A DNA stretch of 64,000 nt from Adineta ricciae. Its lineage: Eukaryota > Rotifera > Eurotatoria > Adinetida > Adinetidae. Shown here in pieces: positions 45,421 to 62,221 of this stretch. Every line of letters begins with the position of its first letter. The stretch's first letter is position 1. The notes beneath the pieces were generated by a model that saw only the letters and a program-made list of their open reading frames with translations, did no database searches and had not been told where the DNA came from. The translations under genes were made by a program, and so were the position numbers. The stretch covers positions 124,001-188,000 of the forward strand of contig CAJNOJ010000077.1 of NCBI GenBank assembly GCA_905250025.1. Reading direction: 5' to 3'.

Positions 45421-47253
45421 ATGGCTTCAGCAGTACTCACGACTCCTATTCCATCACCGGCGGGCAAGGTTTGCACGAGAATTTCCCTTTCCGACAGTAC
45501 TCATAGACAGATACAGAGAATGTATTGATTTTGTAAACATTTATCGAACATCTATGGATCACTGATAATTCTATCTATATTTATATCTATTTAGAAAATG
45601 CCAGTGGAAGGAAGCTATGCTATATGGAATAATCGTGGAGGATCAGGAAAAACCAATTTAACTTATCATTTAGCGATTAAATATGCATATCGAAATCCGG
45701 ATAAAACCATTCTTGTCATTGATATGTGTCCACAAGCTGATCTCAGTCATGCATTTCTTGGTGAGTTCAAGTCGAATTCGTCCCTCATTGATATATTCTC
45801 TACTGATTAATAAGCGTTAAGATTGATAATTAAGGAAAAAGCATAGAGCCGCAAGCAATGGGCAGGAAAAAAAACATATCGAAGTTGGTAATGAGAAATG
45901 TGCTTATACCTAATACGTGTTGATTAACATTAAAAATTAATTCTATTTGATTTGGATCCTATTATTAATTAGAATTGCACTTGTCAAAAAAGTAAAACAT
46001 AGTCATAGCCAGAAAATGTTTTCTCCAGGCTAATCATCACGTTTGTCTCTTTCTTTTCCTATCGTCTTTTGTTCTCGAAGAAAAGAGAAGTTGTCTTCTT
46101 CCGCTTCTAGGTGACGACGAAGAAGGCCATGACTATGTCTCTCAGATAGGTTCACTCAAAAAAGATCCAATGATACTTGACGGACAGCAACGCATACCAC
46201 GCACGGTCGCGGGTTACTTAGATTTATTCACGTCAGTCGGATTACCTACAACAGTGGACCCGCGAACATTTCTTTTCAACGTGTCGAAGTACAATCAACA
46301 GCTACCTCGCAATGTAAGACTTTCAGATCAACTTGAACGTCTTCGTACTTTCTCATTTAGGTTTATCTTTTGTGTGGCGACACTTCACTGGAATTACTAG
46401 GTAAAGCAATGGATTATAAACGTAGCGCCAGTTCGATAAGTCCATATACGAATCCATGGCGAACGATCACGCAGAGTTTACGCGCATTTGTACAGAAAAT
46501 CGGCGAACGTCGTGGAATCAAACTGATGACATTTATCGACACGAACTCATCATTTAGCATCGCAACTGAGATTGCATTGACTGCAGCTGATAGAATCATT
46601 CTACCTGTTAGTGAAGATCATCTGCATCGCAATGGTTTTGAATATCTTTTTAGGTGAGCAAAAGCCAAAGACATGCCAGTAATTCTCGTCTTTTCTTTTC
46701 CTTCTTTAGTCTTCTTTATGGTTTCTCTCAACCGTCCAGTATATATTATTATTATCGACACTATAGTTTCTATTATCGCGCGGATGAAAACGGTGTGAAG
46801 ATCCCGAAGATACATTTGATACTATGTCGGCCATCGTCGATTAATAAAGATTTGAAACTAGGCCTCGGAAGTCAATCGTTTCCCAAAGCTGAAGAAATCG
46901 AGAAATGTTGGCGATTTGTTTACGATGTCTATATGAAACATCGCGATGCATTTGAGATTCATTCGAATACAAAGAGTTCGTTGTCACTGAATGCCTCCTC
47001 GACGTCAATCAATTATCAATCAACTAGTTTAGTGAATAATCACACTCATGCGTCATCCTCTCCAGAAACATTTGAAGATTTCATGCGACAGTATGTCATC
47101 AACATCAGCCATGAGATCAATACAGTTTCCCGACTTGCTGTGAAATCTCATTCACCACTATTAGCTGTTAGACACCCTCACCATTCACATGAACATCAAT
47201 CAACTGCACAAACGTTCGATAAAACATTGAACGAGATCGTCGAACGCATTTAA
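45421..47253 (+). CDS. ParA/MinD-family Walker-type ATPase with introns
   Basis: Five exons (45421-45468, 45595-45760, 46111-46313, 46361-46653, 46767-47253) join in frame to 398 residues. The deviant Walker A loop NRGGSGKTNLTYHLA matches ParA KGGxGKT with its signature residues. Walker A' is ILVIDMCPQADLSHAFLG (ParA DLDPQGNAS). Later come NVYLLCGDTSLELL, a Walker B-like strand GIKLMTFIDTNSSFSIATE and ALTAADRIILPVSEDHLHRN (ParA NALVAADEVLIPV). An insertion of about 120 residues (HFEG-type acidic and Pro-rich) and a Ser/His-rich C-terminus are eukaryote-style additions. ParA proteins segregate plasmids and chromosomes or position complexes in bacteria and archaea. I know of no conserved animal ParA of this subtype, other than the divergent NUBP/Mrp ATPases. 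The four introns show it is not bacterial contamination. Confidence 0.85.
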
Positions 47254-48859: not shown

Positions 48860-55485
<6,626 letters not shown>

Positions 55486-60367: not shown

Positions 60368-60828
60368 AACCGAAGATATTAAATTCAGAACAGAAGGTAG
60401 AACGCAAGATTGATAGTTTTAATTTTGAACAATCGATAGGACAAACAGAGAGAATTGAAAGTGATTGAATGAACTGGAAATAGATTGTTATTCCGATTTA
60501 TCTTAGTGATTAATAAAGCGCTTCACAAAGAATTCACGCGCTCATTCTAGTCGGACAAAAATTGCCGTTTACAGTCGATTCAAATCAAGATGGCTTGAGA
60601 GATATTTCTAGAAAGTAATATCCGCGTACACAACTAGCGCTGCACGATTTACGTTCGTATATTATGGTCGACATTGACTGTGGCGCTATGCATTCATTGC
60701 ACACCAACGGAATAATGATCATCGTTAGTGTCGTTTTCTTTCTTATTTTTTGAAAGATCATATTCTCGAAGGAAAATTCATCAGGAATCGCAGTTTATTT
60801 ATCTCTCAATAGTCACACGATCTCAGAA
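60368..60828. promoter_or_regulatory. divergent upstream region between the secreted exon-array gene and MRG15
   Basis: 460 bases separate opposite start codons at 60367 (minus) and 60829 (plus). Promoters of both genes must lie here. No clear core motif seen. Confidence 0.35.
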
Positions 60829-62221
60829 ATGTCGGACGAAGAAGGCATCCTCGAAGATGGCGATGAAGATGAAGAAGAAGATGAAGAAGAATATAATAAT
60901 CCATCAGTCGAACCTGTCATCGATGTGTTGCAAATTGACAATGAATTATCTTCGACAAAATATCGTTTCAAGAAAAATGAAATCATGCTTTGTTATCATG
61001 GCGTACTTCTCTACGAAGTCAAATGTGTGGATCATAAAATGAAGGAAAACGATAGTGGCAATTTCCATCGTCCATCGTATTTGGTACATTATTGCGGTTG
61101 GAGTTCGAAATGGGATGAATGGGTAGATGAAGCTCGTTTGGTTAAAATGGACGAAGCTGGTTTGAAAAAACAGGCAGAACTACTTCACCAACATGGAAAA
61201 GGTAAAGCGCGCCTGAAAAATTTGCGAAAGAACAACAGTACGAGTCCGTCGAAACGAACAACTAGTCGATCCATATCGGATCATTCGACAAGTACGAATA
61301 TCGACTCGACCACTACTGAATTACCCAACAATACCAATAGTCATTTTCCTCTCGAAGAAACACCATCGTTGTCCGGACGAAGCGATACGGGAAGCAGCAG
61401 CAGTAGCAGTAGTACAACCAGTGAACTGATCACGAACACGGAGTTAGCTGCAACTAGTAATGATATAAGTGAACCTGATGCGAAAAAATTCAAACGAACT
61501 GTGAATACAACTGGAAAGCTACCAACGAAAGATAAAAGTAAGCCGAAGTTCAACCAGAATCCTCTCATTGCTTTTGCATCTTTAAGAAGCAGAAGCAACG
61601 ACAATCATTGTAAATGATTTATCACCAACCATATCTGCTCAACATGAGATATGTCAACGCTTAACTCGTCGATTCTACACCTACCAAATGGAATGGTTAC
61701 ATTTTCCATCCGAACTCGTCGAATTCTTGATAAACGATCGTGATTTAATCAACAATCAAAATTATCTCCTTTCAATCCCACCACTCGATTCGTCGTTGAT
61801 CATTCGAAATATTTTCAATAATTATCTCGAACAGCAAATCAACGAATGTTCATTAGCCGAAGTACTCGCTATTCGAACACTGATTTCCTCGTTAATTGAC
61901 ATGTTTAACATCGCCCTGGGCAAATGTTTATTGTATCGTTTTGAACGTTTACAGCTGCGACAATTGTTAGAAAAAGATTCGTCAATATCTCTTTGTGATT
62001 ACTATGGCTCGATGCATTTACTTCGATTTCTTTGGCGTATTAAAGATTTGTTACGTGATATGAGTGCGAATAGCACTCGCGATGAATTCGGTTTGTTGTT
62101 GAGTCGAATTCAACATATTTTGAATTATTTATATGAAAATCGAACAATGCTTTTTCCTCCTAGTGAATATGACATTTGTTCGACAGAATATTATCGTTGT
62201 TCGTTGCAATGTTTTCAATGA
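60829..62221 (+). CDS. MORF4L1: MRG15/MORF4L1-like chromodomain protein
   Basis: Two exons (60829-61537, 61587-62221) give 447 residues. An acidic N-terminus precedes a chromo barrel domain: FKKNEIMLCYHGVLLYEVKC then SYLVHYCGWSSKWDEWVDEA with RLVKMDEAGL (human VLCFHGPLLYEAKCV, YFIHYSGWNKNWDEWV). A basic Ser/Thr-rich linker follows. The C-terminal MRG domain has MEWLHFPSELVEFLINDRDL, LLSIPP, LGKCLLYRFERLQLRQLLE, YYGSMHLLRFLWRIKDLL and the ending YLYENRTMLFPPSEYDI. The 49-base intron (donor GTAAGC 61538, acceptor TTTAAG 61586) restores the frame between the two halves. MRG15 reads H3K36 methylation and is a subunit of NuA4/TIP60 acetyltransferase and Sin3/HDAC complexes. The linker is longer than in human. 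Confidence 0.93.

Follow-up and report, generated by a model that had tools for sequence, protein, structure and literature searches.

The 64,000-nucleotide stretch of the Adineta ricciae genome analysed here (contig CAJNOJ010000077.1, positions 124,001–188,000 of the forward strand; hereafter, the window) carries a gene at positions 45421–47253 whose product, judged by its sequence, belongs to the stand-alone ("orphan") ParA ATPases, a bacterial family. The gene is a nuclear animal gene, old and under strong purifying selection. It probably descends from an orphan ParA of a bacterial mobile element, with a product that would act as an ATP-bound dimer or scaffold and would serve as a co-opted switch.

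The gene is real, and its exon joins are predicted. Five exons joined in frame yield a reading frame of 417 codons on the forward strand, from the ATG at 45421 to the TAA that closes at 47253, exactly the ends given in the initial annotation. The four spliceosomal-type introns that it described are all predicted with GT-AG borders (Table 1). The contig that carries the gene (C77) measures 406 kb, in an assembly of 130 Mb and 1033 contigs. An alternative acceptor for intron 4 at 46766, which leads to a 398-residue model, was dropped; the acceptor at 46709 is preferred because it regains SLLYGFSQPSSIYYYYRHYS, a segment that lines up with SLVYG of the bacterial proteins. The first Pfam, PDB, tblastn (plasmid and phage), NCBIfam and PHROGs searches, and the first search for the copy on contig C7, used the 398-residue model, and the Pfam search repeated with the 417-residue model gave nearly the same result.

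The protein was initially described as a ParA/MinD-type P-loop ATPase of bacterial ancestry, and both points are borne out. The Walker motifs are located, and the generic P-loop models AAA_31 and CbiA of Pfam score above cut-off. A tblastn search against plasmids revealed "ParA family proteins" (35.8% over query residues 14–264; expectation value (E) 2e-35), with matches in 169 of 72,556 plasmid records and in 3 of 50,697 phage records, and the PHROGs match is phrog_164, a "ParA-like partition protein" (E 8e-25). Against a profile of 62 bacterial orphan ParA members the rotifer protein reaches 251.6 bits. Seven family members left out of the profile score 348–404 bits, P1 ParA 22.4 bits, a small Acidovorax ParA 19.2 bits and the NUBPL-type protein of the same genome 2.9 bits, and the best of 200 shuffled copies of the rotifer protein attains 4.7 bits. 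The alignment with the family spans the whole length, including the bacterial C-terminus, and 43 of the 60 near-invariant positions (at least 90% conserved) are kept. In NCBIfam, all scores of the rotifer protein and of four bacterial members fall far under the cut-offs.

Trees place the rotifer protein inside or beside the bacterial family on a long branch (2.43) with no close donor; the nearest bacterial row is 34% identical over 346 columns. One long row (L147) was removed by hand from the second tree. Family membership was rested on the profile score, because in the tree with far outgroups the long branches meet and the approximate likelihood-ratio support (SH-aLRT) is only 91. Within the family, these trees give the rotifer protein no firm position.

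Two further copies are found in the genome. The allele (contig C8, locus L015) is 94% identical across 10 kb and has the whole reading frame intact, with a synonymous divergence (dS) of 0.10, a non-synonymous divergence (dN) of 0.009 and a dN/dS of 0.09 relative to the window copy. The ohnolog (contig C7, locus L016) is collinear and far more diverged. It retains exons 1–4, with exon 4 incomplete at an N, and introns 1–3 at the same positions with differing lengths; over exons 2–4 (597 nt) dS is about 1.6, near saturation, with dN 0.07 and dN/dS 0.04. The ohnolog values were computed by the Nei-Gojobori method with Jukes-Cantor correction. The intact allele and the collinear ohnolog with shared introns make contamination unlikely and point to purifying selection over a long time, in agreement with the initial view of an old, domesticated gene. 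The two dS values resemble the mean divergences of homologs (0.135) and ohnologs (1.27) given for A. ricciae in passages of PMC5916493, where the values for A. vaga are 0.05 and 0.61. If the copy levels do correspond to such homolog and ohnolog divergences, the gene would be older than the ohnolog split. A genome search for further copies of exon 5 returned only those of the window copy and the allele, plus one match at chance level. The break of the C7 copy at the N in exon 4 may reflect decay or an assembly join. The stretch of about 960 bases that follows it (L016:6132–7100) matched only itself in a genome search for a second copy, which skips simple repeats.

The length of the rotifer branch and the lack of any bacterial tree row above the identity given above also suit a less direct history, in which the rotifer acquired the gene from a different eukaryote, or in which several eukaryotic lineages have preserved an old gene. 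The introns already common to both ohnologs fit such a route as well. On the other side, no copy from a second eukaryote came up in the searches, which covered this genome and prokaryote, plasmid, phage and viral collections, and no such gene is reported among the matches listed in the open-access literature. We regard a eukaryotic route as possible, though clearly the lesser prospect, and a direct transfer from bacteria as the preferred origin.

The bacterial relatives, of about 350 residues, are often encoded on mobile elements: prophages, plasmids and integrative and conjugative elements (ICEs). The scan of prokaryote genomes kept 80 of 313 relatives and that of viral contigs 80 of 134, and the neighbour and motif counts given here cover those. 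Titles of the genome relatives name Pseudomonadota, Bacteroidota, Bacillota, Actinomycetota, Cyanobacteriota, Acidobacteria and one archaeon. Of 168 loci from bacteria, viruses, plasmids and phages, 166 yield a protein, one of 236 residues and the others of 332–378, lengths that are approximate as start codons were chosen by script; L067 and L108 were excluded for want of a usable reading frame. In p1493-4, a P1-like plasmid, repA has a ParB gene and a gene for an AAA-family ATPase at its side; the orphan (WP_052761440.1) lies at another site and is therefore unlikely to be the partition ATPase of this plasmid. The orphan adjoins a CI-like repressor gene in phage phi297, has CI, Cro and CII as neighbours in a phage of Klebsiella, and in E. 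coli LF82 is surrounded by ICE genes. No ParB gene was found in the flanks inspected, except on an Acidovorax plasmid, where one lies 341 bases upstream of the orphan and next to another ATPase gene. Nor does any neighbouring gene recur among 16 loci that include the nearest bacterial branches of the rotifer protein, as read from mechanically derived reading frames.

In 14 of the 166 loci a gene of about 200 residues directly follows the orphan (L049, L058, L059, L062, L064, L078, L084, L085, L091 and L104 in genomes; L113, L115, L116 and L158 in viral contigs). A Pfam test of two of these genes gave a HEPN_RiboL-PSP match for each, with an RHSFAHG-like motif. By this arrangement, the orphan ParA and the HEPN gene likely form a two-gene defence or toxin-antitoxin operon. 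PADLOC (2023 library) found no good model for four bacterial members, its single match being weak (E 0.008). Two genes downstream of a Rhizobium orphan ParA, a TIR domain is encoded (L020:2937–3629; PADLOC PDC-S66, ThsB-like).

The initial annotation took the protein for a canonical ParA; it belongs instead to a distinct family. The rotifer protein and the bacterial orphans (phrog_164-like, as WP_052761440.1) share NN[K/R]GGxGK, DxCPQ and F[I/V]D[C/T]N[P/S]SF. Canonical partition ParA proteins have a DxD Walker A', which is DMC in the rotifer. Cys at the second acidic position (DxCPQ) is present in 166 of 166 bacterial members as well as in the rotifer protein (Cys61), a count in which one genome-scan pattern included the Cys and the viral scan (79 of the 166 members) used patterns without it. 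The corresponding Asp44 of Soj is an Ala in the 2bek structure. The signature Lys of NNKGGxGK is found in 62 of 62 profile rows and in all 166 members, with scan patterns that allowed Arg; the rotifer protein alone has Arg (Arg30), in all three genome copies. The [KR]GG sequence falls within the wider ParA/MinD motif. The Walker A residues K35 and T36 are retained, and after the switch II-like Asp a Pro is changed to Ser and a Tyr to Ala. The predicted fold of a bacterial family member, made as a stand-in for the rotifer protein, matches Soj and McdA. Judged on this relative, the family has the deviant Walker P-loop fold in common with Soj/ParA, MinD and McdA; it differs from them by the Cys at the Walker A' Asp, the absence of a recurring ParA-ParB layout, and a length of about 350 (bacteria) to 417 residues (rotifer) with an extra C-terminal part.

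Unlike the bacterial orphans, the rotifer gene is nuclear and has introns, and its protein has an N-terminal extension, two inserts, Arg for the signature Lys and a divergent C-terminus. The rotifer-specific additions are the N-terminus, an insert of 11 residues and a Ser/Asn-rich stretch of 30 residues, for which the allele comparison gives a dN/dS of 0.64 from 3 synonymous and 6 non-synonymous changes. The segment GDDEEGHDYVSQIGSL, previously described as an acidic insert, aligns to the bacterial GGxxxGxxxL stretch and is ancestral; the true insert is residues 88–98. The long C-terminal tail had likewise been viewed as a new extension. Its bulk aligns to the bacterial C-terminus, about 30 residues are indeed added, and conserved residues have drifted.

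The Cys in place of the Walker A' Asp suggests a slow-hydrolysing ATP-dimer switch. From the rotifer sequence and the predicted fold of the bacterial relative, the protein would bind ATP through its Walker A loop (K35, T36) and would form a ParA-type ATP-sandwich dimer. With Cys at the Walker A' Asp position and Arg at that of the signature Lys, turnover would be slow or partner-dependent, and this would in turn give a long-lived ATP-bound dimer or scaffold, not a cycling partition motor. The ancestor in this scheme would be a mobile-element-borne, phrog_164-like ATPase that became an animal nuclear gene.

One branch of the orphan family appears to act in phage defence. GiPD474 (WP_000368620.1) is described in passages of PMC12724215 as a single gene of the Gifsy-1 prophage, 1086 bp long, with GGVGKT at residues 29–34 and with repressor, Cro and CII-type genes as neighbours; it reduces plating of Felix O1, Alf5 and T4. 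A ParA-like Gifsy-1 gene without ParB is also noted in a passage of PMC9879122. GiPD474 very probably belongs to the orphan family, on a different branch from the rotifer protein. It was compared via look-alikes from E. coli and Klebsiella, which are members of the same family (350–354 bits) and 28–29% identical to the rotifer protein; the one from Klebsiella shares the Walker A' Cys. The E. coli genes of WP_000606712.1 and WP_021514790.1 are 1086 bp long with regulator genes upstream. WP_000606712.1 has GGVGKT at 29–34, scores 350 bits against the family profile and clusters with the P1-type orphan in a clade supported at 100/97.

Several observations weigh against the reading of the rotifer gene as a switch derived from a mobile-element ParA. 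Seventeen of the 60 near-invariant positions are lost, several of them C-terminal, where the family residues D304, V311 and G316 are altered, and exon 5 of the ohnolog is missing from the assembly. The family membership of GiPD474 is very probable on the basis of length, motif position, neighbours and the E. coli look-alikes, and the passages of PMC12724215 report no effect on T7, SP6, LPST153, Jbel, VpaE1 and S16. The GiPD-like branch is distant from the rotifer protein in the tree and the rotifer branch is long, so that a function in common is suggested only tentatively.

The use of the protein in the animal might be that of a cytosolic or nuclear switch that binds nucleic acids or a partner, co-opted from an anti-phage or mobile-element function; we offer this as a guess that has more chances to fail than to hold. 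A stronger version, in which an anti-phage ParA was domesticated for animal immunity against viruses or transposons and would work as a hydrolysis-impaired, ATP-locked dimer, is unlikely, and no transfer of this kind from bacteria to animal immunity is found among the matches listed in the open-access literature.

We consider even more doubtful that a spatial, McdA/ParA-like role was retained, with an ATPase gradient that places cargo in the cell. The fold shared by the bacterial member with Soj and McdA is compatible with it, and McdA (SGGQGKT) and BcsQ (RGGVGTT) likewise lack the signature Lys, as given in Table 1 of PMC9178275. The Walker A' Cys in every examined member fits a fast cycling gradient poorly, and no ParB/McdB-type partner recurs by the bacterial relatives, the sole nearby ParB being that of the Acidovorax plasmid. 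The initial proposal that the protein positions a cargo or compartment is unsupported by this analysis.

Bacterial contamination or a decaying pseudogene, to which the ohnolog without exon 5 could point, is very improbable: the conserved introns and the intact allele already contradict it, together with dN/dS values of 0.04–0.09, contigs of 0.4–1.1 Mb, and EGF-repeat and MSL3/MRG-type genes in the window. Least credible of all is a drifted relative of NUBP/Mrp (Fe-S scaffold) or GET3, which shares the P-loop superfamily and shows weak PDB matches to GET3 (E 0.1–0.2), since the rotifer protein, as the initial annotation held, stands outside NUBP/Mrp, with PF10609 giving no match up to E 10 and the orphan profile giving 251.6 bits, against 2.9 for NUBPL. 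Membership in either group was accordingly rejected. The PF10609 genes of the genome, which we take to be NUBP1, NUBP2 and NUBPL, stand separately on contigs C42, C1 and C97. At the family level PF10609 is no clean divider: its P-loop end gives weak matches in three of five bacterial members tested, one of which (L031) scores 28.1 bits, slightly above the cut-off (27.1).

Bdelloid rotifers are known to hold many foreign genes, mostly metabolic. A ParA-type switch from a mobile element, retained in ohnologous regions and strongly constrained, is of another sort, and would be a rare animal ParA of a non-organellar, non-NUBP type. It seems that a piece of the machinery of bacterial mobile elements has been retained in this animal over a very long period. 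The assignment also connects the gene with a bacterial activity that can be tested, and the replacement of the Walker A' Asp by Cys in all members examined predicts how GiPD474 may work.

Table 1. Features of the orphan ParA gene, in window positions
Feature	Position	Strand	Remarks
Exon 1	45421..45468	+	Residues 1–16; in ohnolog, exon 1 ends after ..TGK at the same site, phase 0
Intron 1	45469..45594	+	GT-AG, 126 nt, phase 0; 481 nt in ohnolog
Exon 2	45595..45760	+	Carries deviant Walker A and Walker A'
Walker A-like RGGSGKTN	45634..45657	+	Residues 30–37; Arg where signature Lys is expected
Walker A'-like DMCPQAD	45721..45741	+	Residues 59–65; Cys61 aligns with Soj Asp44 (1wcv/2bek)
Intron 2	45761..46110	+	GT-AG, 350 nt, phase 1; 51 nt in ohnolog
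Exon 3	46111..46313	+	203 nt, equal length in ohnolog
Insert KKDPMILDGQQ, 11 residues	46158..46190	+	Residues 88–98; columns gapped in >80% of 62 bacterial rows
Intron 3	46314..46360	+	GT-AG, 47 nt, phase 0; 51 nt in ohnolog
Exon 4	46361..46653	+	Spliced model
FIDTNSSF	46532..46555	+	Residues 197–204; bacterial equivalent FIDCNPSF
Intron 4	46654..46709	+	GT-AG, 56 nt, phase 2; acceptor picked by alignment to bacterial relatives; ohnolog copy breaks off before it
Exon 5	46710..47253	+	Ancestral C-terminal part and stop codon
Ser/Asn-rich insert, 30 residues	46969..47058	+	Residues 324–353; weakly constrained between alleles

Elsewhere in the window, an EGF-repeat frame is encoded at 51307–51783, within a region (50000–54000) in which the G+C fraction rises to 0.44–0.45. 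MSL3-chromo-like and MRG reading frames at 60754–62221 jointly resemble a gene of the MORF4L/MSL3 type. On another contig (C435:51790–52062, locus L011), a reverse-transcriptase-like frame with a YIDD-type motif, by which we presume it to be Penelope/Athena-like, lies close to a sub-threshold AAA_31 match.
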